Origin: a virus
Reading direction: 5' to 3' (one strand)
IMG/VR virus record: IMGVR_UViG_3300028883_000032
Span: 124,001 to 188,000 of that record
DNA length: 64,000 nucleotides
The notes beneath the pieces are model-generated. The model was not told the DNA's origin and did not search any database. It was given only the letters and a program-made list of their open reading frames with translations. Positions 3,664-42,235 of this stretch are shown here, piece by piece (position 1 is the first letter of the stretch; each line of letters opens with the position of its first letter). A program made the translations under genes and the position numbers.

Positions 3664-4542
3664 GTGGAGATGCTTTACGAGCAAGGACCGATAACGGAAC
3701 CAGTTCCCATTAACTTTGGAGCTATGTGGGAAGAATTAAAGCGTAAACCAAAAGTATTAAACCCGAAAGAGTCTACAATTCTTTTGGTAATTGACGCTCA
3801 AAATGGGTTTTGTTTGCCCAAACCTTGGGGACAGTTATACGTTCCGGGAGCGGAAAAAGACTGTGATCGCATTGCCAAGCTTATCCACACCAATGTGGAA
3901 AAGTTTAGCCAAATTGTGGCATCGATGGACAGGCATCTTATTATGGCGGCTTATCACCCGTCATTATGGGAAGATAATCCCGGGTTAAAATTCATACCTA
4001 AAGATAAGATTTTAGAACAAGCACGTAGGGACATACACACTGACCTACCAAGATCGTTGCCAACTCTTTTGGGGACACAGATTGGCATAGAGGGTGGAGT
4101 CATGGTATGGCCGTTTCATTGTTTGGGTATGGATACAAGTTCAGCACTACACCCCGCAGTTTTAGAGGCTATCACTTATTTTGCAATGGCCAAACGTGAA
4201 GAACCAATGTGGATAGAAAAAGGTACAGGTGCCTTTGCTCACCCATATTCCCCATTTCATCCAATTGTTGCTATGAGTAACATTGTTTACGGCCGTATCC
4301 AAGACACAGTTCTAAAAGCAAAGAGAATTGTGGTTGTAGGGGAAGCATCTACCCACTGTGTTCACGATACAATAGCTGACCTAGTTCCGCAACTGGAAGA
4401 AAGCACAGAGCTCATTGTATTAGAAGACTGCATGAGTCCCATACCCGGTTTCGAACAACAATGGGAGGATTTGAAAAATGAAATTTCCGGAAAAACAAGA
4501 GCCAAGGTCATCTTCACCACATCGTCCGTATTGGTTCTTTAA
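3664..4542 (+). CDS. pncA: Nicotinamidase-like cysteine hydrolase
   Basis: A 292-residue isochorismatase-fold hydrolase predicted to convert nicotinamide to nicotinate, the first step of Preiss-Handler NAD+ salvage. The triad is visible: D42 in VIDAQNGF, K184 in WIEKGTG and C230 in GEASTHCVHDT. Candidate metal ligands are D87, H89 and H96, and the nicotinamidase-type WPFHC (147-151) followed by HP (161-162) is present. It is longer than many bacterial PncA proteins (about 200), with an N-terminal extension of ~35 residues. The other three enzymes of the pathway are encoded at 14.1-16.7 kb. Substrate is inferred from the motifs; a related amidohydrolase cannot be excluded. Confidence 0.85.
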   Translation: MEMLYEQGPITEPVPINFGAMWEELKRKPKVLNPKESTILLVIDAQNGFCLPKPWGQLYVPGAEKDCDRIAKLIHTNVEKFSQIVASMDRHLIMAAYHPSLWEDNPGLKFIPKDKILEQARRDIHTDLPRSLPTLLGTQIGIEGGVMVWPFHCLGMDTSSALHPAVLEAITYFAMAKREEPMWIEKGTGAFAHPYSPFHPIVAMSNIVYGRIQDTVLKAKRIVVVGEASTHCVHDTIADLVPQLEESTELIVLEDCMSPIPGFEQQWEDLKNEISGKTRAKVIFTTSSVLVL

Positions 4543-4987
4543 ACCAATATATTCCATCATTCTTGTACTACTAGTAATTTTTTCACTAGTAGTATTTATG
4601 GTAGGAACGCGTTCCCTCAAAGACAAAACAATCGATGGAGTAGTTGTAATACCACACCATCAACCGGAAGGTCAGTATCATTATTCGGTAAGGTATGACA
4701 CACTAATAGCTTTTACTGCCCACGATGACAGTGTAAAAATTGTTTTTGCTACAACATGGCCAGCTGACCTTGATTCCATTTCCCTTAACTCACTCCACCG
4801 ACAGGCAATTATGTCTCTACTGGCGGAGTGTACCCAACACACTAAATATTGGTTTAAAAGCGGAAAAATTTATAAATGTAGTCGGATAGAGCAAGCAACC
4901 AATAGAAGGTTAAAGAAGTTTTGCAAGACACAACACTCTCCTCCTATAATTATTACAGTATTGCGGGCCTATTCTTTAAGCCCATAA
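4478..4987 (+). CDS. Single-pass membrane protein
   Basis: A 169-residue protein with a basic N-terminus, one strong TM segment (about residues 24-44, IYSIILVLLVIFSLVVFMVG) and a ~120-residue soluble domain, probably outside the cytoplasm. The start lies within the end of pncA (overlap 65 bases). The stop is inside a rho-independent terminator stem, so transcription should end here. Not recognised. Confidence 0.55.
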   Translation: MKFPEKQEPRSSSPHRPYWFFKPIYSIILVLLVIFSLVVFMVGTRSLKDKTIDGVVVIPHHQPEGQYHYSVRYDTLIAFTAHDDSVKIVFATTWPADLDSISLNSLHRQAIMSLLAECTQHTKYWFKSGKIYKCSRIEQATNRRLKKFCKTQHSPPIIITVLRAYSLSP

Positions 4988-5002
4988 TCGTGGGCTTTTT
5001 TT
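4978..5002 (+). terminator. Rho-independent terminator
   Basis: Perfect 7-bp stem AAGCCCA/TGGGCTT with loop TAATCG followed by a run of T. It overlaps the last codons of the upstream gene and is followed at 5014 by the recurring GGAATAAGA motif. Confidence 0.85.
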
Positions 5003-5013
5003 ACCTTAAATAC

Positions 5014-5022
5014 GGAATAAGA
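5014..5022 (+). promoter_or_regulatory. GGNATAAGA motif, candidate phage promoter
   Basis: GGAATAAGA directly downstream of a terminator and 34 bases ahead of the PgpA-like gene start. One of eleven exact copies in the window. Confidence 0.45.
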
Positions 5023-5055
5023 AATTATGGTACAAAAAACCGGGAGGTGGGTGTG

Positions 5056-5547
5056 GTGACCGAAATAAAGCCGTGGAAAGTGTGGCTTGTACGTGTAGTA
5101 GGCACTGGTTTTGGTATTGGGTATTTAAGGGGCGCAGGGACAATAGGGAGTGCTGTTGTTTCAGTGGTTTGGTGCCTATTATACCCATTACTTACGGTGT
5201 ATACTCAAATCACCGTATTAGCCTGGTTGGTACTACTAACTGTATTCACGGGGGACACAGCCGAGGAATTATGGGGAGCATGGAATACAAGCCGGGTCAA
5301 CCTTGGTAAATGGACGGGCATGTGGATTGTATTGATGTGCATACCTTATAACATATTCATCTACCTGTTTGCCTTTGCGGTTTTTCGTTGTTTCGACATG
5401 CTAAGAACCCTTCCCCCAACCAAATGGATGAACACCCACCTATCAGCCGGTTTGGGAATACTCTTAACTGATATACTAGCGGCAATATATACTATTATTA
5501 GCGTCAGGGTAAGCATAGCCATTGGCTTTCTTATAATGGGTGGCTAG
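5056..5547 (+). CDS. Phosphatidylglycerophosphatase A-like membrane protein
   Basis: The GTG at 5056 gives 163 residues, near the usual ~165 of PgpA, with GGGAGG (5042-5047) at good spacing; earlier in-frame starts would run through a terminator. PgpA dephosphorylates phosphatidylglycerophosphate in the inner membrane. Family features seen: an N-terminal G-x-G-..GAGTIGS segment, several hydrophobic helices, FRCFDMLRTLPPTKWM and GLGILLTDILAAIY. However, where the family has an acidic pair before VG(M/Q)W, this protein reads NLGKWTGMW, so conserved acidic residues appear lost. It may be inactive or altered. Assignment rests on motif memory. Confidence 0.65.
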   Translation: MTEIKPWKVWLVRVVGTGFGIGYLRGAGTIGSAVVSVVWCLLYPLLTVYTQITVLAWLVLLTVFTGDTAEELWGAWNTSRVNLGKWTGMWIVLMCIPYNIFIYLFAFAVFRCFDMLRTLPPTKWMNTHLSAGLGILLTDILAAIYTIISVRVSIAIGFLIMGG

Positions 5548-5568
5548 TAACCATACTCGGGAGACGTT

Positions 5569-5706
5569 ATGGATAATAATGTTGACGTTGAGAAAGAAGC
5601 AATCCTTTCTCAATTTCAGAATGGTGGGTTAGACCCACTCACGTTTGAAGCGCAGATGGCTCGCCTCGAAGCCAAGCATCGACCATTAGACGAAGATGGT
5701 GAGTAG
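5569..5706 (+). CDS. Small acidic hypothetical protein
   Basis: Forty-five residues from ATG 5569, starting behind GGGAGACGTT. The product is acidic and helical (VEKEAILSQFQ, FEAQMARLEAKHR). No homologue recognised. It is followed directly by a terminator. Confidence 0.5.
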   Translation: MDNNVDVEKEAILSQFQNGGLDPLTFEAQMARLEAKHRPLDEDGE

Positions 5707-5711
5707 CAAAT

Positions 5712-5739
5712 ATCGCCCTTAATCGGGGCGGTATTTTTT
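5712..5739 (+). terminator. Rho-independent terminator
   Basis: Stem ATCGCCC/GGGCGGT (5712-5718 with 5726-5732, one G-T pair) followed by ATTTTTTT. A one-mismatch copy of the GGNATAAGA motif (GGAATATGA) follows immediately at 5741. Confidence 0.75.
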
Positions 5740-5779
5740 TGGAATATGAATATAATAAACAAACTTTAAGGGAATAAAA

Positions 5780-6088
5780 ATGCAAGAAGGCTCACAGTTA
5801 CGTAATAGTGACATGGATACTCCCGACTGTGATATCTCAGAAGATTGGAATCCAACGCCCGTCATTAGTTCTTTTCAGTTTACTTTTACTCAAGACGGCA
5901 ATACACTAGGAACTACTAAAGAATTTGAAACTATCACAATAAAAACTGAGTATCAGATCCCCGGTGAATATCCGTTTTTTGTAATTGAAACAGAGGGATG
6001 GAGTGTAGATTCGGTAAAAGACTTGGAGACCCTGTTTAAAAATTTCCTGCATGTGGTAAAACATGCGATGGGGGAAGATAAAATCTAA
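5780..6088 (+). CDS. Hypothetical phage protein
   Basis: Unrecognised 102-residue acidic soluble protein starting with ATG behind AAGGGAATAAAA. It is beta-rich in the middle (ISSFQFTFTQDG, FETITIKTEYQI), with a C-terminal helix. The adjacent gene follows after 18 bases. Confidence 0.6.
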   Translation: MQEGSQLRNSDMDTPDCDISEDWNPTPVISSFQFTFTQDGNTLGTTKEFETITIKTEYQIPGEYPFFVIETEGWSVDSVKDLETLFKNFLHVVKHAMGEDKI

Positions 6089-6106
6089 AGAGACTTGGAG
6101 GAAATC

Positions 6107-6565
6107 ATGGTAATAATTCTCATATTAATCATCTTAATTTTAGTGGTCTTACTAATTATATCATTAATAGCACATTCAAATACCAAGGAACAGGCAGAGA
6201 TAAACGAACTGAAAAAAGAACAGATAATACAAAACTTGCATGACTTAACAGATAGATATACCAACCTTAAAGTTCCCGACAATCAGGCTTCTCTACTCGG
6301 AAAAAAAATCTTGGTTACGGCCACAGTAATTGGTGAATATGGTGATCCAACAGCAAGGGAGCTCGTCGTTAAAATCAACGGACCTAAAGGGTATAAAGAG
6401 ATAAAACTTAATCAATATGTATTAAGGTATAGGCCAACCATGTATTGTTGTGGTAGTCGGTATCCGGATAAAAGCAACCCAATGGTGTTTGAATATATAG
6501 CATCTGAAAAAATAAGGCCCATCAAAAGCAGTGGGAGCTTTCAACAGGCCCTGGAGGAGGGTTAA
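6107..6565 (+). CDS. Membrane-anchored protein with coiled coil
   Basis: ATG 6107 is chosen because GGAGG (6097-6101) lies 5 bases upstream; a TTG at 6095 is the longer alternative. The 152-residue product has an N-terminal TM segment (residues 2-22, almost all I, L and V), a short coiled coil (~29-52, EQAEINELKKEQIIQNL) and a ~95-residue beta-rich soluble domain with a CC pair. The anchor suggests an envelope role. Family not recognised. Confidence 0.55.
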   Translation: MVIILILIILILVVLLIISLIAHSNTKEQAEINELKKEQIIQNLHDLTDRYTNLKVPDNQASLLGKKILVTATVIGEYGDPTARELVVKINGPKGYKEIKLNQYVLRYRPTMYCCGSRYPDKSNPMVFEYIASEKIRPIKSSGSFQQALEEG

Positions 6566-6584
6566 TTAAGTATACATCAAATAC

Positions 6585-6615
6585 TTGAAAAAATCAAGTA
6601 GGTTGTGTATATTTG
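6585..6615 (+). promoter_or_regulatory. Promoter for the FmdB-like gene
   Basis: TTGAAA (6585-6590), 17-base spacer ending in TGTG, TATATT (6608-6613) then TG, giving TATATTTG. It matches the TTGNNN-17-TATATT layout of five other promoters here. The -35 also lies in a small hairpin ACTTGA/TCAAGT. Confidence 0.65.
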
Positions 6616-6641
6616 TTTATCAACAAGAGGCGCGGTATATA

Positions 6642-6902
6642 ATGCCAACTTATACTTATAAATGTGAAGTTTGTGGGATTGAATCTGACCATTTTCATTC
6701 CATGAATTCAGAACCAGTAAATGTTTGTCCTGTCTGTAAGTCTGAAGGTAAGATGGAGAAATTAATAGGGCATAGCGTTTCTTTCATCTTTAAAGGGCAC
6801 GGTACCCACGACTCGGACAAAAGAATACGAATGCTTCAAGAGGAGGCTGCAAAAGGAAATGATGATCCTGAAAAGGGGTACAATATGACATTTGGAGCTT
6901 AA
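6642..6902 (+). CDS. FmdB-type zinc ribbon protein
   Basis: ATG 6642 gives 86 residues starting MPTYTYKCEVCG, the characteristic beginning of FmdB-family putative regulatory proteins. Two CxxC knuckles (CEVC at residues 8-11 and CPVC at ~33-36) form the zinc ribbon, followed by GKMEKLIG and a Gly/His-rich linker. The function of FmdB proteins in phages is unknown; nucleic acid or protein binding is likely. It has its own promoter at 6585. Confidence 0.75.
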   Translation: MPTYTYKCEVCGIESDHFHSMNSEPVNVCPVCKSEGKMEKLIGHSVSFIFKGHGTHDSDKRIRMLQEEAAKGNDDPEKGYNMTFGA

Positions 6903-6903
6903 T

Positions 6904-7125
6904 ATGCCGTATGTAAATCCAAAATATCCTGAAACCTTCGTCAAACCAAGCAGAGTGCGGAGGTGGAAGCACAGTAGTAAGTTCAGGTTTTGTGAATCTG
7001 AGCCTTACAGACGAAGGGGAGATTTTGATGGAAGAAGTGTCAAATCCTCAGTTACAAGGCAAAAGTGGCCTATGTTATCAAAACCAAAAAGAAACCTGAT
7101 ACCAGAAATAGACAAATGGAATTAA
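6904..7125 (+). CDS. Small basic hypothetical protein
   Basis: ATG 6904 directly follows the FmdB stop and gives 73 residues, very rich in R, K, S and P (VKPSRVRRWKHSSKFRF), with little predicted structure. It could bind nucleic acid. The last codons overlap the next start. Confidence 0.45.
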   Translation: MPYVNPKYPETFVKPSRVRRWKHSSKFRFCESEPYRRRGDFDGRSVKSSVTRQKWPMLSKPKRNLIPEIDKWN

Positions 7126-7406
7126 ACGAAAATCTAAATTTTCCCCTGTTTGAAAATGAGAAAGCTATGTTGGCTAATGGGAGAATAGGGGAAGAACAAA
7201 GACAGTATAATCATATTATGAAATCATGCATACAGGGGTATGATAGAGATATAAGACTAAAAAGCCAGACTATGACGTATGTCCCTATTCCTGATGATTA
7301 TTTTGAAGATGTAGTTTTGAAAGTAAGAGACCATATACGCAAGCAAGGGTGGCACTGTGAGTTGGAATCTGAGCTAGGGGCTGGTCTTATTATTCAAATA
7401 CCATAA
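7116..7406 (+). CDS. Hypothetical phage protein with helix-GW-strand C-terminus
   Basis: ATG 7116 (96 residues) overlaps the previous stop; a GTG at 7065 is an alternative. The C-terminus (VLKVRDHIRKQGWHCELES..GAGLIIQIP) has the same helix, G-aromatic, two-strand layout as the ends of genes 634 and 986. Soluble, function unknown. Confidence 0.55.
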   Translation: MELNENLNFPLFENEKAMLANGRIGEEQRQYNHIMKSCIQGYDRDIRLKSQTMTYVPIPDDYFEDVVLKVRDHIRKQGWHCELESELGAGLIIQIP

Positions 7407-7443
7407 CAAAAATACACACTTAAGTAGCTACCATTGGTTATAT

Positions 7444-7514
7444 TGGGGTGTAGCCAAGTGGTACGGCATCGGACTTTGAATCCGATATTCGTGGGTTCGA
7501 ATCCCACCACCCCA
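7444..7514 (+). tRNA. tRNA-Gln (TTG)
   Basis: Complete cloverleaf: acceptor TGGGGTG/CACCCCA, D arm, anticodon loop CTTTGAA giving TTG, T arm GTGGG-TTCGAAT-CCCAC. No CCA is encoded (next bases TCA), so it needs a CCA-adding enzyme, which this phage encodes at 11754. Confidence 0.95.
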
Positions 7515-7535
7515 TCACGCACTTTTGAGGAGAAA

Positions 7536-7928
7536 ATGGCAAAACAAAGTTTTATTATGCAGGCTTTTTGCAGCGACGAAATTGATGTATGGGATATGGA
7601 AAAAAGTGTTCTAGCCCAATGTTGTGAGGAAACCTGCGATAGTTGGGATACTATTCCTTCTGTTATGCAAACCCTTCTTATGGAAGGTAGTGAAGTAATG
7701 GAGCTTGGAAAGAGAAAGCTAGTAAGATTCTCGACTGACCCGCTTACACTCGTTTTACATAGACTACGCAACAACATTTGGATGTTTGAGCTACTTGATG
7801 CCGAAGATTACTCTACTGGAGAGACATACTTCTTCAAGGTGGAACAGTTGGAAGTAGCAAATGAAGTAGCATATAAATTACTGGTAGAGTACGAAGTTTT
7901 GGACGAGCTAAAAACTGAAGAAGACTGA
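7536..7928 (+). CDS. Hypothetical acidic phage protein
   Basis: ATG 7536 lies behind GAGGAG just after tRNA-Gln; longer in-frame versions would run through the tRNA. The 130-residue product is acidic, with a Cys cluster near the N-terminus (AQCCEETC) and a helical C-terminus. No family recognised. An eight-codon ATG ORF (7934) and an A/T-rich gap follow. Confidence 0.6.
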   Translation: MAKQSFIMQAFCSDEIDVWDMEKSVLAQCCEETCDSWDTIPSVMQTLLMEGSEVMELGKRKLVRFSTDPLTLVLHRLRNNIWMFELLDAEDYSTGETYFFKVEQLEVANEVAYKLLVEYEVLDELKTEED

Positions 7929-7983
7929 TTTTTATGGCAAAAGAAGATGACTTGAAATAATCTACTTAAAACGGAGTTTATTT

Positions 7984-8271
7984 ATGGCAGAGAAAAAAAC
8001 AAGGCATCAAGCTAAGAATGCGAGAAGATTGGCATACAAGTCTTCAGGTCAGGATGAAAAGAATAAAGAAAGACGAATTGTAAATTCAGTGTATTCTTTA
8101 GCTTTGGCTTTTGCTAAGAAAAATTGTTACGCTAATCATAAAGACTCCGAAGCTCGCAAAAAGCTAAAAAATAAAATACGTGCTTTGGTTTCTAAAACAC
8201 GTATCAGTCATCCCGAGCAATCGGTGTGGGTAAAAGATAACAGAGACTCAATATGTGAGCCTCTAAGATAG
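7984..8271 (+). CDS. Small basic hypothetical protein
   Basis: Ninety-five residues, highly basic and helical (KKTRHQAKNARRLAYK, ARKKLKNKIRALVSKTR), with properties of a nucleic-acid-binding protein. The next gene's Shine-Dalgarno AGGAGGGG overlaps its stop. Confidence 0.6.
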   Translation: MAEKKTRHQAKNARRLAYKSSGQDEKNKERRIVNSVYSLALAFAKKNCYANHKDSEARKKLKNKIRALVSKTRISHPEQSVWVKDNRDSICEPLR

Positions 8272-8279
8272 GAGGGGAT

Positions 8280-8498
8280 ATGCTAATGTCAGGATTGATT
8301 GATCCGGACGAAACCGTCCCATGTAAAAATCCAAAAAGAGGCAAGCCTCCCGTGTTTTACTCACTCGAAAAATTACAAGAATTATCTGAACATGGGCGCA
8401 CTATCATATATCACCCATCAAATCCGTGCGAACCAATCCCGCAAGACGAAAGGGATCATTATTTTCCCAATTGTCTTCCATCAGACTTGATGGGTTAG
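8280..8498 (+). CDS. Small hypothetical protein
   Basis: Seventy-two residues from ATG 8280 behind a strong AGGAGGGG. Proline-rich with two segments of polar residues (PKRGKPPVFYSLEKLQEL, SNPCEPIPQDERDHYFPNC). Not recognised. Confidence 0.5.
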   Translation: MLMSGLIDPDETVPCKNPKRGKPPVFYSLEKLQELSEHGRTIIYHPSNPCEPIPQDERDHYFPNCLPSDLMG

Positions 8499-8516
8499 AA
8501 CAAATCGAGAGACGAC

Positions 8517-8603
8517 ATGTCACCCTCTGAAGAGAATGTAGTGCGCATAGATTCTCTTCAGGGGACTCTCATTTTCGGAGCACAATTATGGCAACCAATT
8601 TAG
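8517..8603 (+). CDS. Possible 28-residue peptide overlapping a hairpin
   Basis: ATG 8517 behind GAGAGACGAC starts a 28-codon ORF that ends 16 bases inside the next gene. It contains a long inverted repeat (8523-8564), so the conserved item could be the RNA structure instead of the peptide. Possible leader peptide or coupling ORF. Confidence 0.3.
   Translation: MSPSEENVVRIDSLQGTLIFGAQLWQPI
8523..8564 (+). promoter_or_regulatory. Strong RNA hairpin ahead of gene 8588
   Basis: CTGAAGAGAAT (8527-8537) pairs perfectly with ATTCTCTTCAG (8551-8561), extended by CCC/GGG across one bulged T, with a 13-base loop. No T run follows, so it is not a classic terminator. It sits 24 bases before the ATG at 8588 and may control its translation or mRNA stability. 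Confidence 0.55.
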
Positions 8604-8941
8604 GGCAACTACTAAGAATTAATGAAGTCGATGATCTGACGGACTGGATCAATGGTACAAACGAGTTGGAATTAAATGATGTAGAGTGGCCAGCCCCGCT
8701 AATGGTTTTAATTTTAGATGGCGCGACCGTTTTAGACTCAATACCTGTGGAAGAGCTGCCAGAGGGGTTTAAACAATCTGGAAGAATAGTAATTTACAGG
8801 TTGCGTGATGGGTCTGTACTCGAAATGAGTGAGGGTAACTCTGAATTTAGCCCAGAAGTATATTATTATTCTGCGGCTGAATGGCGGGCCATCGAGGAGC
8901 ATGCCGCCGAATTATTAAATGCGGCTTCCGAGGCCTCATAG
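8588..8941 (+). CDS. Hypothetical acidic phage protein
   Basis: A 117-residue acidic protein (many E and D) starting just downstream of a strong hairpin with CGGAGC as ribosome site. Contains a beta-rich middle (MVLILDGATVLDSIP, IVIYRLRDGSVLEM) and an Ala/Glu-rich C-terminal helix. Not recognised. Confidence 0.6.
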   Translation: MATNLGQLLRINEVDDLTDWINGTNELELNDVEWPAPLMVLILDGATVLDSIPVEELPEGFKQSGRIVIYRLRDGSVLEMSEGNSEFSPEVYYYSAAEWRAIEEHAAELLNAASEAS

Positions 8942-8949
8942 GAGGCAAA

Positions 8950-9093
8950 ATGTACTACGAACTTACGGATATGTTAATGTCGGTGTTTTTACACTACCCC
9001 GCATTAATATTGCAATACATGTATGAAGTATATAAAATGAATAGAATTAACATTGAAAGGCTTAAGCGACAATGGTTAGTGAAGGAGCAGTAG
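8950..9093 (+). CDS. Small hypothetical protein
   Basis: ATG 8950 behind AGGAGGCAAA gives 47 residues, with a moderately hydrophobic, aromatic first half (MSVFLHYPALILQYMY) and a basic C-terminus. Could be peripheral to the membrane. Overlaps the next gene's start by 22 bases. Confidence 0.45.
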   Translation: MYYELTDMLMSVFLHYPALILQYMYEVYKMNRINIERLKRQWLVKEQ

Positions 9094-10241
9094 TAACTGA
9101 CAGAGTAGATCACTATGAAGTGATCAATTCTAATACAGTGTCAAGAACCTTGGATTTAAAAAGTCTGTCTACCGGAAAAATCCGCAGAAATCAACCAATT
9201 GGAAACTTCCAAGTTTTGGTTAGCGGGCGCAGGGAGACAGCAGCGGTTATCCGCCCAGAGGTAAGGTCATTTGGCACAGAACCAACATACCCGTTACACT
9301 ATGGTAGAGAACGGGCTACACAGAATGAAACTACGAAACGAGGAAAAGAAGGAATGTTCGGAAGATCTTTTGAAAATCTCTTTAATTTGAATTTTGGTCC
9401 CGTGCACGGCGACCAGTTCAAAATCGCAATGACCCCGCAGGGTCCAAGAGTTGCAATTAAGAATAATGAAGGCGATTATCTCACGTTCGACGCGGAAAAT
9501 GAATCGCTGTTCAACGTTCTCAACTTTGCATTTGGTGGAAGGGATATGTTCTACATGGTCCCGGTAACGGAAGAAGGTATCAACCCCGGCGACGTCGTAC
9601 TCGTCAAGGGAAAGCCTGTTTTCCTCCATCACGTAATGGAAAATGGTAACTGGCGTGTAATTAACCCCGCTTCCAGCGCGGTTCATACACACATCAATCC
9701 GCAGAATATTCTCGGATTCCGCATCTTTACCAAGATTGTTTCAATCTCTGAGGTATTTGGTGCAGTTAACCCAGCCGAGGGCATGGATCTCGCTGGCAAT
9801 CCGCTGTTGGCCATGGCAATGATTGGAGAAGGCGGCATCGGTGAAAGCAACATGCTCAACATGCTTCTCTTAACCGGCCAGCTTAATCAGGGCGGTGACC
9901 AGAACGGTCTCATCAACTTGTTACTCATGAGCCAGCTTGTCGGGCGTGATAACGGGCGTGGTTTTGACCCGAAGATGCTGCTCTTAATGGGCGGAAATCT
10001 TGGCAACATCAATCCGATGATGCTTCTCGCCATGAGCGAAGGTGAATTTGGAATGAAAGACATGTTGCTGTTCAATGCACTGGGCGGACAAAAGGGTGAA
10101 GGAGCAGGAAACCTTTTCGGAAACTTTAAGTTCCCGTCATTCGCTGCCCCGGCACCGGCAGAAACTGATGCCAAACCGGCACCTGCCAAGAAAGCACCTG
10201 CCAAGAAAGCACCTGCCAAGAAAGCACCTGCCAAGAAGTAA
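9072..10241 (+). CDS. Gly/Met/Leu-rich protein with C-terminal APAKK repeats
   Basis: A 389-residue protein not recognised by family. Residues 1-90 are a charged N-terminal region, 90-240 a beta-rich domain, 240-350 a low-complexity Leu/Met/Gly/Asn-rich region with repeats such as MLLLMGGNLGNINPMMLL, and the tail is four tandem APAKK units built from a 15-bp exact repeat. Codon use is visibly more GC-rich (CTC, GGC, CCG) than in the neighbours, suggesting high expression or separate origin. The lysine-rich tail resembles histone H1-like tails and could bind nucleic acid. A strong terminator follows. Confidence 0.65.
   Translation: MVSEGAVVTDRVDHYEVINSNTVSRTLDLKSLSTGKIRRNQPIGNFQVLVSGRRETAAVIRPEVRSFGTEPTYPLHYGRERATQNETTKRGKEGMFGRSFENLFNLNFGPVHGDQFKIAMTPQGPRVAIKNNEGDYLTFDAENESLFNVLNFAFGGRDMFYMVPVTEEGINPGDVVLVKGKPVFLHHVMENGNWRVINPASSAVHTHINPQNILGFRIFTKIVSISEVFGAVNPAEGMDLAGNPLLAMAMIGEGGIGESNMLNMLLLTGQLNQGGDQNGLINLLLMSQLVGRDNGRGFDPKMLLLMGGNLGNINPMMLLAMSEGEFGMKDMLLFNALGGQKGEGAGNLFGNFKFPSFAAPAPAETDAKPAPAKKAPAKKAPAKKAPAKK
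10179..10238 (+). repeat. Four tandem 15-bp repeats encoding APAKK
   Basis: Four consecutive copies of GCACCTGCCAAGAAA (last copy ends AAG) at the end of the gene at 9072. Nearly identical units suggest recent slippage expansion and possible length variation among relatives. Confidence 0.9.
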
Positions 10242-10262
10242 TTTGGCAAATAACGATGTATA

Positions 10263-10292
10263 GAGTGGCCCCTTCGGGGGCCACTTATTTTT
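10263..10292 (+). terminator. Strong rho-independent terminator
   Basis: AGTGGCCCC/GGGGCCACT nine-bp stem with a TTCG-type loop followed by TATTTTTTT. It ends the 9072 gene and precedes tRNA-Arg. Confidence 0.9.
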
Positions 10293-10302
10293 TTAATTGG
10301 TT

Positions 10303-10375
10303 GCCCCTGTAGCTCAATGGATAGAGCGGGGGCCTTCTAAGCCTCAGGTTGTAGGTTCGAGCCCTACCAGGGGTA
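10303..10375 (+). tRNA. tRNA-Arg (TCT)
   Basis: Acceptor GCCCCTG/CAGGGGT, D arm GCTC..GAGC, anticodon loop CTTCTAA giving TCT, T arm GTAGG-TTCGAGC-CCTAC, discriminator A. CCA is not encoded (next bases CTG). The TCT tRNA reads AGA/AGG codons, common in this AT-rich genome. Confidence 0.95.
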
Positions 10376-10386
10376 CTGGAGGAGAT

Positions 10387-10851
10387 ATGTGGTTGGTAGT
10401 CTGTCTAATTGTAGGATATCTCGGCCTTTGGGGCCTGTGGGTATCAATGAAAAAAGACTCGGAAACTCTTTTCGCAGTGTCATTAATTATCTTAGTCGCT
10501 TTCACAATACTGTTAATAGTAGGAGTGGTACAAATTTTTGATATAGTACCCAGCACCGATGTTAAGTATTCGTCGGAACCTTCAGTACGTTCTGAATTAC
10601 TGGATGCACTGCCATCAGGAACTCAAACCGAAACATTTGACAATGGTATGTTAATGGTTACTATCGACCCTGATAGTGCATCACACTCTGAATATTTGAG
10701 GTTCGATAATAAGTATGAGTATTGGGTAGAGGACTTTTACACCCCGCTTAACAAAGCCTACTCTAGATCGGTAAGTGGCTGGTATGGTGTTTTTATAAAG
10801 GATAGGCCGAAAATAAATTATATTGAAGTTGTAACAAAAGGTTGGAAATAA
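10387..10851 (+). CDS. Membrane protein with two TM segments
   Basis: ATG 10387 behind GGAGGAG gives 154 residues; longer readings pass through tRNA-Arg. Two TM segments (about residues 1-20 and 28-52) are followed by a ~100-residue soluble domain, probably periplasmic. Not recognised. Confidence 0.55.
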   Translation: MWLVVCLIVGYLGLWGLWVSMKKDSETLFAVSLIILVAFTILLIVGVVQIFDIVPSTDVKYSSEPSVRSELLDALPSGTQTETFDNGMLMVTIDPDSASHSEYLRFDNKYEYWVEDFYTPLNKAYSRSVSGWYGVFIKDRPKINYIEVVTKGWK

Positions 10852-10856
10852 TACAT

Positions 10857-11186
10857 ATGAATAAAACAATTAATTTAAACATGTATGTGCATGTAATTCG
10901 GCATCTTCGAACTCTAAACGGGGATCCGTATGCTACGTTTGTGGCAATTTACCACCCAGCACATAATAAAATTACCTATGGTTGGGCTATTTCCCATGCC
11001 GAATTAGACACATTCTCTTCGAAGGATGGAGTTCAAATAGCTTTAGGAAGAGCCATTGCCAATAGACACGATCTTCTTGACAAAAAACATTTCATCCCGC
11101 CCGACTTGAGAACCTCTCTTCCAGATGCATGGAAAGATTTTCAAGAATATGCGTATGAACGTATCAATAAAGCAAGAACCAAGTAA
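10857..11186 (+). CDS. Hypothetical phage protein
   Basis: ATG 10857 gives 109 residues. N-terminal strands (YVHVIRHLRTLNGDPYATFVAIYHP) are followed by helices; the sequence has a YGWAISHAELDTFSSKDGV stretch and reads like a small soluble regulator, but no family is recognised. Starts 5 bases after the previous stop. Confidence 0.6.
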   Translation: MNKTINLNMYVHVIRHLRTLNGDPYATFVAIYHPAHNKITYGWAISHAELDTFSSKDGVQIALGRAIANRHDLLDKKHFIPPDLRTSLPDAWKDFQEYAYERINKARTK

Positions 11187-11198
11187 GGAAAATATCCT

Positions 11199-11456
11199 AT
11201 GGAGTTCTTAAAAAAGCTTTGGGTTGCGATTTCACACTCTTTAATTTTTGAAGTGTGGATAACTTTCAAAAAAATAACACAACTTGGCATTGAAGACCTG
11301 TTTATACTTATATTATTTGCCATAATAGGGGCAATTCTGTTATGGTTGGCCTTCTTCATTCTGAAGATTTTTATTCCCATTATAGGTGCCATTTTAGGTC
11401 TCTACTTTGGGATTAAGTTTCTTCTTGAATACAACGAAAAAGTAAAGAAGGAATAG
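11199..11456 (+). CDS. Small two-TM membrane protein
   Basis: Eighty-five residues behind AAGGAAAATATCCT. After an amphipathic N-terminus there are two adjacent hydrophobic segments (about 34-54 and 56-72) and a basic/charged tail. Unknown function; one of many small membrane proteins in the early region. Confidence 0.55.
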   Translation: MEFLKKLWVAISHSLIFEVWITFKKITQLGIEDLFILILFAIIGAILLWLAFFILKIFIPIIGAILGLYFGIKFLLEYNEKVKKE

Positions 11457-11656
11457 TTTACCTCCCGAGGGTCCCGTCCCGCTAGACTATGGGCCTCATG
11501 CATTCGTATCATCGTTAGGACAACCTTTAATTTCCACCTAATTCAGGAGGGTATCATGGAATACCCATCAGGTTTTGGTTAGTTAAAAAAAATACTACTA
11601 ACAAGAAAAAATTAAAGGTAAAACATCGATCTTTTTAATCTCGTGTAGAAGTACGA
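11457..11656 (+). ncRNA. Structured noncoding region upstream of cca
   Basis: About 200 bases without a credible gene. An 11-bp stem ACCTTTAATTT (11523-11533) with AAATTAAAGGT (11609-11619) encloses a GGGTAT/ATACCC hairpin (11549-11566) and a GTTAGT/ACTAAC pairing. Inside is an 8-codon ORF (11556-11582, MEYPSGFG) with a perfect AGGAGGG that is partly inside the hairpin. This resembles a leader-peptide or small-RNA arrangement. The segment 11460-11500 has tRNA-like words on the minus strand but no complete cloverleaf. Confidence 0.4.
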
Positions 11657-11703
11657 TTTTCCCATGTGCATGGAATGTATCCGTGGCATGGGAAAATTTT
11701 TTT
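11657..11703 (+). terminator. Rho-independent terminator
   Basis: Ten-bp stem TTTTCCCATG/CATGGGAAAA with a 20-base loop, followed by TTTTTTT. Ends the upstream structured RNA; GGAATAAGA follows at 11716. Confidence 0.8.
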
Positions 11704-11715
11704 ATCCTAAAACAT

Positions 11716-11724
11716 GGAATAAGA
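11716..11724 (+). promoter_or_regulatory. GGNATAAGA motif, candidate phage promoter
   Basis: Exact GGAATAAGA just after a terminator and 30 bases before the cca ATG. Confidence 0.45.
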
Positions 11725-11753
11725 CCTAAACTAACAGTTTACGGGAGATTGCA

Positions 11754-13415
11754 ATGTCTAAAAGAACACAAGCCCTTGTTCGAGCCATCAGTGCGGCAGG
11801 CGGACACGCGTTTTACACCGGTGGTTGGGTTAGGGATAAGGCTATGGGTATTCCGACCTCTGGAGATCTGGACATAGAGGTATATGGGCTTTCGAAAGAA
11901 GAATTGGAGGAAGTGCTGAAGCCATGGAATCCCGATCATGTGGGTAAGAGCTTTGGAGTTTTTAAGCTGAATGGTCTGCATGGCATTGATGTCTCCCTAC
12001 CCCGCAAGGATACTCAAGTAGACCCAAAAGATCATAAAGCTGTAATAGTCACTTATGATTCCAAGATGTCTACAAAAGAAGCATGCTTCCGTCGTGATTT
12101 TACGATGAATTCCATGTTGTTTGATCCTCTCCAAGAGAAAATTATTGATCATTGGGGAGGCCTCGTTGATATAAAGCGAGGTCAGATAAGAATGGTTTCT
12201 GAGCATTTCGGGGACGACCCATTGCGTGCATTAAGGGCTATAAAGTTTATGACCCGCACAGGATTTTCTTTGGAACCAAAAACAGCAGAAACTGTTCGAA
12301 AAATGAATACCTCTAAATTGCCCGCCGAAAGAATTTGGGGAGAGCTTTCGGACATGCTGGCAAAAGGAATATATTGGATAGATGCCTTAAACACATTAGT
12401 ATCCAGTGTCACAGGCAAATTCTGGTTTCCAGAACTTGTCGCATTGCACGGCTTGGAACAAGACCCAAGTTGGCACCCAGAGGGAGACGTGCTTACTCAT
12501 ACCGCGTTGGTGGTACAAGCAGCCTCTCAAATGAAAATTCCCAAAGACAAGAAGGTAAAATTTATGTTGGCAGCATTACTTCATGACTTGGGAAAAGCAA
12601 AAACAACGATACACAAAGATGGGCATATTAAAAGCCCTCTTCATGACCGCGTGTCCGCTGAGTTGGCCGAAGTACTTATGACCAGGTTACACGTGTCAAA
12701 AGAAATACAGAAATATGTGGTACCGATGGTGAGAAACCACATGTGGGCAGTTAGCTCCATGCCACATGGAAAGGAAGCCAAAGTTAGTGATGGTAAAATA
12801 CGCAAACTTTCTACTAAGGTTCCCAGCATCGACGATCTTATGGATTTGGCGGTGGCAGATAAAATGGGAACGACTGATGCTAGACTTAAGACCGAAACTT
12901 TGGATCATATCGAGTCAATTAGACAACGTGCTCGAAAGCTTAAGGTCCTTCATGCGGCTCCTAAGCCCATTATACAAGGTAGGCATCTTATTGATTTTGT
13001 TACTCCTGGTCCTCAGATGGGCGAGATACTCGCATGGTGTTACGAACAGCACCTGAATGGTAAAGTAACAAGCCCAGAACAGGGAATTGCCTTGTGGTGT
13101 AAACATCATAACCAAAAATTTGTAAAAGTCGGGTTCATACCGGGAGACGTACGCGGATTAATGTTGTCGTCAGATGCAACTGTGGCGCAGGTTATTTCGG
13201 CGGGACTAGTACCCACTGTCTATAACGAAGTACTGGTGCATCCAAGGCATGTAAAAATATCAAGTATCGGAGAGGATACCTACAAAAGCTGTAGTTTGTC
13301 CGATGTCCCTCGCCACATGGATAGAATATTGATTTTGGGAGTGCCTACAACTCCAAGCATGAAGTGGCAAGAAGGATTAAAAGAGCTCCTTGGGAGCCTT
13401 AAAACCACCGACTGA
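11754..13415 (+). CDS. cca: CCA-adding tRNA nucleotidyltransferase with HD domain
   Basis: A 553-residue class II (bacterial type) tRNA nucleotidyltransferase that adds CCA to tRNA 3' ends. The catalytic head is clear: YTGGWVRDKAMG near residue 22 and the SGDLDIEVYG metal-binding aspartates near 37, then RRDFTMNSMLFD and the DDPLRALRAIKF motif. An HD phosphohydrolase-type domain follows (HPEGDVLTHT, LLHDLGKAKT). ATG 11754 lies behind CGGGAG. The phage tRNA-Gln, tRNA-Arg and tmRNA lack encoded CCA, so the enzyme could mature them or repair host tRNAs cut by defence nucleases. Confidence 0.92.
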   Translation: MSKRTQALVRAISAAGGHAFYTGGWVRDKAMGIPTSGDLDIEVYGLSKEELEEVLKPWNPDHVGKSFGVFKLNGLHGIDVSLPRKDTQVDPKDHKAVIVTYDSKMSTKEACFRRDFTMNSMLFDPLQEKIIDHWGGLVDIKRGQIRMVSEHFGDDPLRALRAIKFMTRTGFSLEPKTAETVRKMNTSKLPAERIWGELSDMLAKGIYWIDALNTLVSSVTGKFWFPELVALHGLEQDPSWHPEGDVLTHTALVVQAASQMKIPKDKKVKFMLAALLHDLGKAKTTIHKDGHIKSPLHDRVSAELAEVLMTRLHVSKEIQKYVVPMVRNHMWAVSSMPHGKEAKVSDGKIRKLSTKVPSIDDLMDLAVADKMGTTDARLKTETLDHIESIRQRARKLKVLHAAPKPIIQGRHLIDFVTPGPQMGEILAWCYEQHLNGKVTSPEQGIALWCKHHNQKFVKVGFIPGDVRGLMLSSDATVAQVISAGLVPTVYNEVLVHPRHVKISSIGEDTYKSCSLSDVPRHMDRILILGVPTTPSMKWQEGLKELLGSLKTTD

Positions 13416-13432
13416 CAATCTGAAGCGGTGCT

Positions 13433-13480
13433 GCCTGGTACGCCGGGGACATGTTAACCTCTGTCCCCGGTAAGTCAGGC
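13433..13480 (+). terminator. Nested hairpin, probable terminator
   Basis: CCGGGGACA/TGTCCCCGG nine-bp stem inside an outer GCCTG/CAGGC stem, followed by TTTAATTT. The T run is weak, so it may instead protect the mRNA 3' end. Confidence 0.55.
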
Positions 13481-13514
13481 TTTAATTTAACACTTAATTT
13501 AAGGGAGTGTAAAG

Positions 13515-13778
13515 ATGGAAAAATTACGAAATTATTGGTATTCGTATTGTGAAGCTATTCAAGATGCCGAAAGAACAGAGGGTAAAATTATTTCCACATC
13601 CTTGGTAATTATTACTCTTTTTATGATAGCTCTTGGTCTCATAGTAGTTTGGGAATTCCCCGGAACAGTAATAACAATTGCTGTAATAGTTATAGTTGTG
13701 GCAAAATTTAATGCATACATTTTGCAACAAGAGAGGCCTCGAGATGGAGATCGAAGTAAGGAAACATTACAAATTTAA
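13515..13778 (+). CDS. Small two-TM membrane protein
   Basis: Eighty-seven residues with AGGGAG upstream. Two hydrophobic segments (about residues 28-46 and 50-68) are separated by FPG. Short charged tails on both sides. Not recognised. Confidence 0.6.
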   Translation: MEKLRNYWYSYCEAIQDAERTEGKIISTSLVIITLFMIALGLIVVWEFPGTVITIAVIVIVVAKFNAYILQQERPRDGDRSKETLQI

Positions 13779-14103
13779 ACAAACTTGCCCGTCATGTGGC
13801 GCTCGTTTGAGATCTTTTGTTCAGGAGCAGCAACACACCAATGGGTATTGGAACCAAATAGCCACCTATGAATGCGGGTATAAACTCCACTTTATACCCA
13901 ATTTCATGGGTGTACGGGTAGAATGCCGGTGTGAAAAATCCCCTGAAACTCTAGAAATCATAGAAAAGCGTAAAGAGGTGTTGGGTAGAGTCATTAACTA
14001 CGTGAGGAAGTTAAGGCTGGACGATCAGTACGCAGCCAAGATACTTCATGAGCTTGAACGTTTAGGTGAACCTCACAACATAACTCAAGGTATAAAGGTT
14101 TAA
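13744..14103 (+). CDS. Zinc-ribbon hypothetical protein
   Basis: ATG 13744 gives 119 residues overlapping the previous gene by 35 bases. A CPSC pair (residues ~15-18) and later C..CRC Cys residues suggest zinc binding; the second half is helical and basic. It lies directly before pncB. Role unknown. Confidence 0.6.
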   Translation: MEIEVRKHYKFKQTCPSCGARLRSFVQEQQHTNGYWNQIATYECGYKLHFIPNFMGVRVECRCEKSPETLEIIEKRKEVLGRVINYVRKLRLDDQYAAKILHELERLGEPHNITQGIKV

Positions 14104-14125
14104 CAACCGATAGCGGAGATACATT

Positions 14126-15310
14126 ATGTGCAATGTAGTGACAGAACCAATCATAAAGTCAATTCTTGATAACGACTTATACAAGCTAAACATGCAACAG
14201 GCTGTTTGCCAGTTATACCCAAGGGCAGAAGCCGAATATAGGCTAATATTTCGTAGACCTGCAAAATTTACATATAAAATGATGCAGGAAATCTCTCAAG
14301 AAATACAGAACTTGTCAAAACTACAGCTAACAAGTGACGAAGAGTTGTTTCTTTCCACAACTTGCTACTATTTAACTCCGGTATATATTGAGTTTTTACG
14401 TGGGTTCAGATATGATCCTCGCCAAGTATCACTAAAATGGAATGAGGACAAGATAGATTTAAAAATCCATGGGCCTTGGTACCAATCGATAATGTGGGAA
14501 GTTGTACTTATGTCAATCATTTCTGAAGTTTATTTCAGACATGACACTACAAAAATCTATTCCCCCGAAGCAAGACGTGCAAATAATATTGAGAAGATTT
14601 CCAGACTTAAACAGCACGATATTCCCTTTGCAGAATTTGGAACCCGCCGTCGCCATTCTTATGCAATTCAAGAAGAATTCCTCAACCATGCCAGAGAATA
14701 TGGACCACCGCAATTTGTAGGAACTTCTAATGTACATTTTGCCCACAAATTAGACACAGTTCCAATAGGAACTACTGCCCATGAATGGTATATGTTCCAT
14801 GCAGCAAAATATGGCTATAAACTTGCCAATGTCATGGCTCTTAAGGCTTGGTCAAAAGTTTATAGAGGCCACATGGGGATTGCCCTTTCCGATACTTTTA
14901 CTACTAAAGCGTTTTTAGACGTATACGATACATACTGGGGAAAACTGTTTGATGGTGTAAGACAGGATTCCGGCGATCCTCTAAAATACTCTGATGATGT
15001 AATATCTCACTGGAGACATACTCGAGTAGACCCTGTCACCAAATCCATTGTATTTTCGGATGCTTTGAATATCGATAAGGCCATAGAGCTAAAGAGGTAT
15101 ATCGCCGATAGGTGTAGAATGTCTACCGGAATAGGTACCCATTTTACTAACGATGTTGGGGTAACTCCTCTTAACATGGTCATAAAGATGTCCAGAGCAA
15201 AACCTGAAAATATGCCATGGCAGAATACGGTTAAGCTCTCTGACAACATTGAAAAAGCCACTGGAGACGCCAGTGAGATTTCTTTTGCAAGGAGGGTATT
15301 GGGCGTATGA
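14126..15310 (+). CDS. pncB: Nicotinate phosphoribosyltransferase
   Basis: A 394-residue enzyme matching PncB in length, which converts nicotinate and PRPP to nicotinate mononucleotide with ATP hydrolysis. Family landmarks: the N-terminal LDNDLYKLNMQQA, FGTRRRHSYAIQ, GTTAHEW with the probable catalytic histidine, VRQDSGDP and IGTHFTNDVG near the C-terminus. It uses the nicotinate made by the phage PncA. Its stop overlaps the NadD start (ATGA), so it is in an operon with nadD and nadE. Confidence 0.92.
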   Translation: MCNVVTEPIIKSILDNDLYKLNMQQAVCQLYPRAEAEYRLIFRRPAKFTYKMMQEISQEIQNLSKLQLTSDEELFLSTTCYYLTPVYIEFLRGFRYDPRQVSLKWNEDKIDLKIHGPWYQSIMWEVVLMSIISEVYFRHDTTKIYSPEARRANNIEKISRLKQHDIPFAEFGTRRRHSYAIQEEFLNHAREYGPPQFVGTSNVHFAHKLDTVPIGTTAHEWYMFHAAKYGYKLANVMALKAWSKVYRGHMGIALSDTFTTKAFLDVYDTYWGKLFDGVRQDSGDPLKYSDDVISHWRHTRVDPVTKSIVFSDALNIDKAIELKRYIADRCRMSTGIGTHFTNDVGVTPLNMVIKMSRAKPENMPWQNTVKLSDNIEKATGDASEISFARRVLGV

Positions 15311-15903
15311 ATAGTCGGATAGGAGTGTTTGGGGGATCTTTTGATCCCCCCGACAACGCTCACGGATACATAGCAGAGTATGTTCGCCAAGAGCTTAACT
15401 TTGATCGCATTATCTGGGTGCCAACACGTCAGAATCCCCAGAAACAGAAGGTAAAATCAACAATATTTGAGCGAATTCGAATGATCAGAATGGTCATAGA
15501 ATCGCTGGGATTAACAGAGTTTCATGGTTTAGACCAAAGGCAGTTATACAAAGATTTCCCCCACACTACTTACGGATTAATATCTTCCTTACAAAACGAC
15601 TTTTCACAGGACGAGTTGTTTCCAATCATTGGTTCTGATTGTGTAGAAAACTTTCCTAACTGGTCCGACTTTAACAAACTTGTGGGTATCTGTAAATTGG
15701 TTATTGTATGGAGACAACGAGAGAAACCCTCAGAGTTGGAATGTGAGGAGCTAAAAAAGTTTGGGGAATTAGTTATACCCGCTTGTAGCTTCGACATATC
15801 CTCTTCATGCATACGCAACATGGTAAAACATGCAAAGCCGATTAACGGATTGGTGCCCGATTCGGTAAGACGTTACATAAGAACAAGGAGGCTTTACAAG
15901 TGA
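15307..15903 (+). CDS. nadD: Nicotinate-nucleotide adenylyltransferase
   Basis: A 198-residue NadD that adenylates nicotinate mononucleotide to deamido-NAD+. Residues 9-19 are GGSFDPPDNAH, the nucleotide-binding (T/H)xxH-type signature, and near the C-terminus ISSSCIR matches the conserved ISST.IR motif. Start overlaps the pncB stop and stop overlaps the nadE start (GTGA). Length is typical. Confidence 0.93.
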   Translation: MNSRIGVFGGSFDPPDNAHGYIAEYVRQELNFDRIIWVPTRQNPQKQKVKSTIFERIRMIRMVIESLGLTEFHGLDQRQLYKDFPHTTYGLISSLQNDFSQDELFPIIGSDCVENFPNWSDFNKLVGICKLVIVWRQREKPSELECEELKKFGELVIPACSFDISSSCIRNMVKHAKPINGLVPDSVRRYIRTRRLYK

Positions 15904-16673
15904 ACAGCATTGAGATAAAGGGGCTTGAAATAATTGAACGCATTGGAGAATTTGTTGGAGACAAGCCCGTAGTAATTGGCTTGTCAGGTGGGGTAGACTC
16001 GGCATTAGTAGCCACAATGCTTTGTGATGCCCTGCCCTCCATCGACCACATTATTCCCGTATGCATGCCAAGCGACCAGTCACCTAGCCTCGATCAACAG
16101 TGTGTAGATGCTTTAGTAAAAGAATTGGGACTTAATGAGCCATTCACAATTCCCATTGGGGAATTGAATTCCGAATTCATTAAGCTCATTCTACGCACAA
16201 CGACTTATGACAAACCCACTGCCTTGGATCGCGGAAACCTGTCTGCACGACTACGGATGTCCATACTTTACTGGATTGCTGGCCACGTGAATGGCCTAGT
16301 GGCCGGTACAGGTAATCGTACCGAACATGAAATTGGTTATTTCACAAAATGGGGAGATGGTGCAAATGATTTTGAGCCCATTGCCAGCTTATGGAAATGT
16401 GAAGTTTATAGGTTAGCAAGGGCTTTGGGAGTTCCAGATATAATTCTCGATCGTCCTCCTTCAGCTTGTCTTTGGGAAGGTCAGACCGATGAAGAAGAAT
16501 TTGGGATGTCTTACGAGCAACTCGATCTACACCTTGATTGGCTGTCTGGAGACTACCATCCTTATACATGGTACCTTTCCAACAAGACAAAAATCAGTGT
16601 TGATACATTAAAACAGGTGATTCTCTTAAGGAATGGGTCTAGCCATAAAAAGCACATGCCACCAACGCTGTAA
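15900..16673 (+). CDS. nadE: Ammonia-dependent NAD+ synthetase
   Basis: A 257-residue NadE that amidates deamido-NAD+ to NAD+ with ATP and ammonia. The PP-loop SGGVDS (29-34) and downstream NLSARLRM, GTGNRTEHEIGYFTKWGDG and SACLWEGQTDE segments are diagnostic. No glutaminase domain is present, so free ammonia is the donor. GTG start overlaps the nadD stop; a strong terminator ends the operon. Confidence 0.94.
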   Translation: MNSIEIKGLEIIERIGEFVGDKPVVIGLSGGVDSALVATMLCDALPSIDHIIPVCMPSDQSPSLDQQCVDALVKELGLNEPFTIPIGELNSEFIKLILRTTTYDKPTALDRGNLSARLRMSILYWIAGHVNGLVAGTGNRTEHEIGYFTKWGDGANDFEPIASLWKCEVYRLARALGVPDIILDRPPSACLWEGQTDEEEFGMSYEQLDLHLDWLSGDYHPYTWYLSNKTKISVDTLKQVILLRNGSSHKKHMPPTL

Positions 16674-16692: not shown

Positions 16693-16720
16693 AAAGGGGG
16701 AACTTCGGTTCCCCCTTTTT
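16693..16720 (+). terminator. Terminator of the pncB-nadD-nadE operon
   Basis: AAAGGGGGAAC-TTCG-GTTCCCCCTTTTT, an 11-bp stem with a UUCG tetraloop and T run. Confidence 0.95.
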
Positions 16721-20851: not shown

Positions 20852-21289
20852 GTGGAAAAAATAAATATCATTTTTGAGGACAATCTCACCGGGAATGAAT
20901 ATAAGTGCATTGCTTCAGAGTGCAACATTAGCCGCACTAAAGAAATATTTACAGACCACTTCGGAGAACACGAAGTATGTGTGCCAGGAAGGACGCTTAT
21001 ATCTGGCAAGATAACAGGTCTTACCAATTTACCAATGGACGGAGTTTTAAACAAATCATTTACATGTAATATAAACAACATTGTCCTCCACGACTTATCA
21101 ATTGTTGAAGTACGTGATGAGACGCGTCTTTATCCTTATGGGTATTCAAGGAACATTGAATTTGTTGCGTGTTCTATGGAAACTGTGGACCCAAAACCAG
21201 ACTCCAAACAAAAAATAAGTATAGATGCGCTCGTAGACCTGTTTAAAACCATAGGAGTATTTTACCATGATTCGGCAATTCCGGGGTAA
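20852..21289 (+). CDS. Hypothetical phage protein
   Basis: A GTG-start ORF of 145 residues, beta-rich throughout (INIIFEDNLTGNEYKCIA, RTLISGKITGLTN), with a short C-terminal helix. No family recognised. The end overlaps the NADAR start by 23 bases. Confidence 0.6.
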   Translation: MEKINIIFEDNLTGNEYKCIASECNISRTKEIFTDHFGEHEVCVPGRTLISGKITGLTNLPMDGVLNKSFTCNINNIVLHDLSIVEVRDETRLYPYGYSRNIEFVACSMETVDPKPDSKQKISIDALVDLFKTIGVFYHDSAIPG

Positions 21290-21698
21290 ATACAGCCCCT
21301 TTTCAAACTTTTCGTTTCATACTGTTGCTCTTGAAAACATTGTTTTTCCTACAGGTGAACATGCTTTTCAATGTTATAAGGCAAAAACGGAAGATGGTTT
21401 TGATGCTGTGTTGGAGGCACCAACCCCAAGTAATGCAAAGCGCATAGCTCGCCAAATTGATATGCGTGACGACTGGGAAGAGGTAAAAGATGAAGTCATG
21501 TACAACGTCATTAAGGCAAAGGTAGAACAGCACCGAGATGTTAAGGAACTGTTACTTTCCACGGGAGACGAAGAAATACAAGAAGGAAATACTTGGGGAG
21601 ACGAATATTGGGGAGTCTCCTTACCGTCTGGCAGGGGCCGAAACCAACTTGGAAAAACGTGGATGCGGGTAAGAAGGGAGTTACAAAATGCCCAATAA
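21267..21698 (+). CDS. NADAR/YbiA-family ADP-ribose-linked hydrolase
   Basis: A 143-residue NADAR (YbiA/DUF1768) protein. Landmarks: FRGKYSPFSNF at the N-terminus, PTGEHAFQCYKA, R.....W...K..VM in the middle, LLSTGDEEIQEGN, WGDEYWGVSLPSGRGRNQLGKTWMRVR at the end (two adjacent conserved blocks). Known members act on N-glycosidic bonds of riboflavin-pathway intermediates or remove ADP-ribose from guanine. In this NAD-rich gene set a de-ADP-ribosylation or NAD-related role is plausible. Overlaps the Nudix gene. Confidence 0.85.
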   Translation: MIRQFRGKYSPFSNFSFHTVALENIVFPTGEHAFQCYKAKTEDGFDAVLEAPTPSNAKRIARQIDMRDDWEEVKDEVMYNVIKAKVEQHRDVKELLLSTGDEEIQEGNTWGDEYWGVSLPSGRGRNQLGKTWMRVRRELQNAQ

Positions 21699-27168: not shown

Positions 27169-27198
27169 AAGCCACTATTATTAGTGGCTTTTTTTTGT
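27169..27198 (+). terminator. tmRNA terminator
   Basis: AAGCCACTA/TAGTGGCTT nine-bp stem with TTAT loop and eight T. Confidence 0.92.
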
Positions 27199-29614: not shown

Positions 29615-29631
29615 CAGGTAGCTTTTTTTAC
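29604..29631. terminator. Terminator between NYN gene and RNAP gene
   Basis: AGCTACC/GGTAGCT seven-bp stem with T run on the plus strand (29623-29629), overlapping the ends of two convergent genes. Confidence 0.75.
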
Positions 29632-42018: not shown

Positions 42019-42049
42019 AAAAAGGCTCTCATATTTGAGAGCCTTTTTT
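42019..42049. terminator. Bidirectional terminator
   Basis: AAAAAGGCTCTCA-TATT-TGAGAGCCTTTTTT; works on both strands between the plus-strand genes and the minus-strand virion operon. Confidence 0.92.
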
Positions 42050-42233: not shown

Positions 42234-42235
42234 TT

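Follow-up and report, generated by a model that had tools for sequence, protein, structure and literature searches.

Phages have been described to restore NAD+ by two chemistries, from ADP-ribose in NARP1 or by direct phosphoribosylation of nicotinamide through NadV. In salvage of the KVP40 type, which we take to be the NARP2 type, phage-encoded NadV (NAMPT) and NadM or NadR rebuild NAD+ from nicotinamide and PRPP. NARP1 is a two-step pathway that restores NAD+ from the products of NADase cleavage, ADP-ribose and nicotinamide (PMC12774641), using the PRPP-synthetase-like Adps and the NAMPT-like Namat. In their survey of phages, Iyer et al. name only NadV, NadM and NadR (PMC9503650). Four enzymes leading from nicotinamide to NAD+ were reported in 2023 for the wastewater huge phage 5-SewaE, in a main text that names no genes and treats the enzymes as auxiliary metabolism (PMC10747093).

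Here we analyse a 64,000-nucleotide window of a phage genome in which four ORFs are predicted to encode PncA, PncB, NadD and NadE. The features discussed below, in window coordinates, are:

3670..4542, + strand: pncA, predicted nicotinamidase (ORF, motif, fold, context, Shine-Dalgarno)
4478..4987, + strand: small ORF overlapping the 3' end of pncA (ORF list)
4978..4997, + strand: terminator-like hairpin at the end of the pncA unit (stem of 8 pairs followed by a T tract)
14126..15310, + strand: pncB, nicotinate phosphoribosyltransferase (TIGR01514, NF003704, PDB 2im5, viral alignment)
15307..15903, + strand: nadD, nicotinate mononucleotide adenylyltransferase (TIGR00482, PDB 1kam, motif comparison)
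15900..16673, + strand: nadE, ammonia-dependent NAD+ synthetase (TIGR00552, PDB 2e18, motifs)
16693..16718, + strand: rho-independent terminator of the pncB-nadD-nadE operon (hairpin of 11 pairs, then a T-rich tail)
21267..21695, + strand: NADAR-domain protein (PF08719, 99 bits, cut-off 35.1)
21688..22170, + strand: Nudix hydrolase overlapping the NADAR gene (PF00293, 43 bits, cut-off 21.1)

The set has the same four reactions and enzyme families as bacterial Preiss-Handler salvage, in which relatives of this PncA also adjoin pncB, nadD or nadE. It differs in being phage-encoded, in the coupled overlaps of pncB-nadD-nadE, in its divergent PncA and in an unusual NadD motif. Unlike NadV-type salvage, the route passes through nicotinate and NaAD and takes four enzymes, and no NadV was found; unlike NARP1, it involves neither Adps nor Namat, types that were not found in this phage. 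The pathway of 5-SewaE, as far as its main text describes it, is probably the same. A sequence-only reading of this DNA had called the four genes a full nicotinamide-to-NAD+ Preiss-Handler set, chemically distinct from NARP1 and from NadV/NadM salvage, and our analysis bears this out. Its claim of novelty went too far: other phages carry the set, phage NAD+ synthesis had already been described in the open-licence literature, and the four such enzymes of 5-SewaE date from 2023 (PMC10747093), so that the pathway is already known in kind.

The source record fits a large tailed phage

The window covers bases 124001-188000 of a 206,856 bp record of an uncultured phage, classed as a virus in IMG/VR. 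The portal protein shares ~30% identity with the Salmonella phage Arash portal. Genes for a DNA polymerase, RNA ligases, ThyX and a sigma factor, all among the Pfam families listed (the first 25 of 34 and of 31), lie in other parts of the record. These features fit a large tailed phage. Since the window belongs to an IMG/VR virus record with an Arash-like portal, the earlier attribution of these genes to a phage is correct. A nucleotide search of 14 kb against phage records gave zero matches. Relatives sought by the portal reached 40-43% identity only, all on small contigs and none of them close, and a search by the putative terminase gave none. A Bacteroidota host is possible, because a PF18962 secretion sorting domain, which we take to be typical of Bacteroidota, is found (among the families listed) in a protein encoded outside the window, and because the nearest cellular rows in a small PncB tree are Bacteroidota.

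Several other genes of the record are of interest in their own right. The window contains a tmRNA gene (26804-27169; RF00023, 111.8 bits; ARAGORN), three tRNA genes and a CCA-adding tRNA nucleotidyltransferase (11754-13415; phrog_2244). A reverse transcriptase domain protein was assigned by eye to 37377-38306 (RVT_1 is among the families listed), and a 2,046-aa ORF at 29628-35768 resembles, by eye, fused RNA polymerase beta and beta-prime subunits. Outside the window, a match to the anti-Pycsar Apyc1 family (PF23023) and ThiF and JAB proteins are among the families listed, with genes assigned by eye at G000 41717-42559 and 47712-49294, as is a TOTE-type archaeo-eukaryotic primase-like protein (PF22548; gene by eye, G000 198744-201584).

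Three of the enzymes are encoded by one operon

By their model scores, PncB, NadD and NadE are members of curated equivalog-level families. PncB scores 389.5 bits with TIGR01514 (cut-off 269.55) and 458 with NF003704 (379), and it matches PDB 2im5 across 386 residues (E=1.2e-85). In the viral alignment H219, within GTTAHEW, occupies the usual position of the phospho-histidine, a role that we take from general knowledge of the family. NadD scores 137.3 bits with TIGR00482 (cut-off 112.45) and matches the NadD structure 1kam (E=9e-26). NadE scores 203.7 bits with TIGR00552 (cut-off 63.65), matches PDB 2e18 (E=4e-40) and contains the SGGVDS loop and the FTKWGDGA and LWEGQTDE motifs; it is without a glutaminase domain and groups with ammonia-dependent enzymes. 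All three PDB matches span most of the protein. The genes overlap by four bases each, ATGA between pncB and nadD and GTGA between nadD and nadE, and AGGAGG-like ribosome sites precede nadD and nadE. With the hairpin at 16693-16718, this is the overlapping, terminated operon that had been proposed.

The same proposal held that the catalytic motifs are intact in all four enzymes. This applies to the other active-site residues, and the exception is the (T/H)xGH motif of NadD, which reads D16-N17-A18-H19. The other aligned NadD-like sequences have His or Thr at position 16, apart from a single Asn in a gut phage fragment (L026), and none of them has Asp there. Gly18 is swapped for Ala, Ser or Val in several of them. 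D13, H19, the GSD segment and SSxxIR are all retained. Mutation of the second His of E. coli NadD shows its importance (H19A has 0.62% activity); the same study did not mutate the motif's first position (PMC1249556). Judged from these residues, the phage NadD is likely to be active, though this is not assured. The Asp in place of Thr or His, together with the long PncA branch described below, is what one might expect if at least one of the genes were decaying or were passenger host DNA, with NadD possibly impaired by its altered motif and the pathway not working. We consider this very improbable, as all four reading frames are uninterrupted and have good ribosome sites and coupled overlaps, the remaining active-site residues are conserved, and the same set recurs in varied gene orders in other phages.

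PncA is a divergent nicotinamidase-like protein

The pncA gene lies ~9.6 kb upstream of the operon. Its ORF extends over 3664-4542 from a GTG start; the ATG at 3670 is the likelier start, because AAAGGAG lies seven bases ahead of it. PncA residue numbers are counted from GTG 3664. The small ORF that overlaps the end of pncA probably shares its transcription unit. Since the hairpin at 4978-4997 and a second terminator-like hairpin at 10263-10286 intervene between pncA and pncB, pncA is a separate unit outside the operon.

PncA is a member of a long (~290 aa) clade of the isochorismatase superfamily. It falls under every curated cut-off (Pfam PF00857, 25.6 bits vs. 27; NF008623, 31.2 vs. 174) and carries a long insert relative to classical PncA. 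Its end branch in the tree is 2.79 and its best identity 33%, a divergence so great that a scan queried with the window PncA alone gave zero matches; an alignment of relatives succeeded as the query. The low scores and the insert, the separate transcription unit, and the vWA and kinase genes that adjoin most viral relatives would all be compatible with an amidase for another substrate, in which case the phage would have a nicotinate-to-NAD+ route only (PncB, NadD and NadE). Active site, fold and gene context make this improbable. The catalytic triad (D44, K186 and C232) and the metal site (D89, H91 and H152) are complete and invariant across 30 viral homologues, and the same six positions stay invariant when shorter, classical-size phage nicotinamidase-like proteins are aligned. 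In an alignment to yeast Pnc1 they fall on its catalytic and metal-binding residues, whose roles we take from general knowledge of the family. For the AlphaFold model (mean pLDDT 80.5), the eight best matches in the PDB are all nicotinamidases, from bacteria, archaea, yeast, fly and Leishmania, and biuret, triuret and maleamate hydrolases rank behind them; the TM-scores are moderate because of the inserts. Relatives also adjoin the rest of the pathway. In phage record L003 pncB ends at 11167 and pncA starts at 11171, and in Desulfobacteraceae, Bacteroidota, Pseudomonadota and Bacillota the bacterial members of the family have pncB, nadE or nadD as a neighbor. We regard PncA as nicotinamidase-like by its motif, fold and context, and its substrate we infer, given its divergence and its scores below the curated cut-offs.

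A different gene neighborhood is common in this family. Of 45 viral loci of the PncA family, 38 have a vWA gene beside pncA and 36 have a kinase-like gene (viral pncA neighborhoods L005, L029, L031-L040, L042-L046, L048, L050-L058 and L061-L064). A PP2C phosphatase often joins them, giving an arrangement like the TerY-P triad plus a nicotinamidase. The same arrangement of vWA, kinase and pncA genes is present in Chloroflexota and Lachnospiraceae contigs, and the window phage does not have it.

Other NAD+ routes and neighboring genes

We considered whether PncB might instead be a NAMPT of the NadV type, and rejected this because PncB passes the PncB family cut-offs and the family-model search found no other NAPRT/NAMPT-fold protein, and hence no NadV or Namat, in the phage genome. 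The only adenylyltransferase-fold match is NadD, and a PRPP synthetase (PF13793) is absent by model search. As far as these models detect, NARP1 is excluded (PF13793 is absent and PncB is the sole NAPRT-fold protein), and so is NadV with NadM or NadR, the NARP2 type (no NadV, and the lone adenylyltransferase is NadD). With no PRPP synthetase found, the pathway would rely on host PRPP.

The NADAR and Nudix genes overlap each other and share the strand of nadE, 4.6 kb downstream of which they lie. The NADAR protein is a possible companion in ADP-ribose metabolism; NADAR genes beside NAD+ salvage genes in phages were noted by Iyer et al. (PMC9503650).

The gene set recurs in other phages

PncB is also encoded in 18 of the 39 viral records that bear this PncA family, many of which are fragments, and NadE in 17 of those 18; 12 of 42 records had an adenylyltransferase-fold match over the cut-off. 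Some sets are contiguous. A human gut phage record (MT835470) has the order pncA-pncB-nadE-AAA ATPase-nadD-Nudix, and the phage genome G042 has pncB, a glutamine-dependent nadE, pncA and nadD (one ORF between), then a gene for a Nudix protein whose winged-helix domain is of the NrtR type (PF21906). The NrtR-like Nudix regulator listed at L156:6799-7545 (PF21906) immediately follows a phage cluster of this order, pncB-nadE-pncA-nadD. In L002, three genes overlap end to end: pncB, a Nudix gene nearest to ADP-compound hydrolase models, and a pncA of classical size.

Two cultured jumbo phages, Sinorhizobium phage Phosso and Agrobacterium phage Atu_ph07, have candidate sets consisting of nadE, pncB, Nudix, an adenylyltransferase and an unnamed nicotinamidase-like protein with conserved active-site residues. 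They differ from the window phage in being cultured, in the short form of their PncA and in gene order. The best scores of the Phosso adenylyltransferase, though weak, are with NMN-type models, and the Phosso route may therefore be mixed. Xanthomonas phage X1 has been listed with pncB, nadD and nadE (PMC13384950); it gives no clear support, since in the region that we read the annotated enzymes are NAD synthase, nicotinamide-nucleotide adenylyltransferase and a nicotinamide phosphoribosyltransferase, which makes it a NadV-type phage. Acinetobacter phage MD-2021a (pncB, nadE and ydjB annotated) was left out, as its assemblies are multi-contig and may hold host DNA. The trees suggest that PncA and PncB were exchanged several times between phages and bacteria, rather than descending in one phage lineage. 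The four-gene set looks like a real, recurrent phage pathway.

Proposed pathway and role

We think it likely that the phage encodes a complete Preiss-Handler salvage route that recycles nicotinamide into NAD+, for which we infer the activities, expression, flux and biological role. PncA would deamidate nicotinamide to nicotinate, PncB would convert nicotinate and host PRPP to NaMN, NadD would form NaAD from NaMN and ATP, and NadE would make NAD+ from NaAD, ammonia and ATP. PncB, NadD and NadE would be co-produced from the translationally coupled operon, with pncA expressed apart. During infection, nicotinamide released by NADases, sirtuins and ADP-ribosyltransferases would be recycled to NAD+ as the host supply falls.

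A nicotinamidase fits recycling after cleavage, because cleavage of NAD+ by NADase defences, sirtuins and ADP-ribosyltransferases yields nicotinamide. The likeliest selective reason, at about even odds in our view, is that the genes keep up NAD+ in the infected cell, including after a NADase defence fires, and counter-defence against NADase immunity is plausible. The hints are circumstantial: the NADAR and Nudix genes downstream, and the NrtR-like gene beside the pathway of G042. NrtR responds to ADP-ribose, according to the name of the family model, a hint that NAD+ breakdown may turn on the set of G042, a relative rather than the window phage. Against a defence role, or the pathway itself, the route needs host PRPP and ATP, at an ATP cost above that of NARP1. 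Since NadD and NadE are already present in most bacteria, what the phage gains may be dosage and not a new capacity.

A serious rival, which we hold to be quite possible, is that the genes supply a large phage with cofactor for its replication and metabolism, the role proposed for the KVP40 salvage, without a link to NADase immunity. NAD genes are abundant in large and jumbo phages (Iyer 2022, PMC9503650; PMC13282480), this genome also carries ThyX, dUTPase and other metabolism genes (among the Pfam families listed), and the genes identified next to the operon include neither a NADase inhibitor nor a signal sponge. Cofactor supply alone accounts less readily for a nicotinamidase, which is most useful where NAD+ cleavage frees nicotinamide, or for the NADAR and Nudix genes and the NrtR-like gene that adjoins the G042 set.

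More speculatively, and in our view doubtful as a whole, a Preiss-Handler module would have been put together more than once by large phages, as a third counter-defence that restores NAD+, in which the nicotinamide from NADases would pass through PncA, PncB, NadD and NadE, the ADP-ribose would be handled by a neighboring Nudix enzyme, and some sets would be under an ADP-ribose-sensing regulator of the NrtR type.

Phage nicotinamidases tend to escape annotation pipelines, because their scores fall below the family cut-offs. If the pathway operates as proposed, a deamidating route in divergent huge phages, probably including Phosso and Atu_ph07, would be a chemically different solution to the restoration of NAD+.
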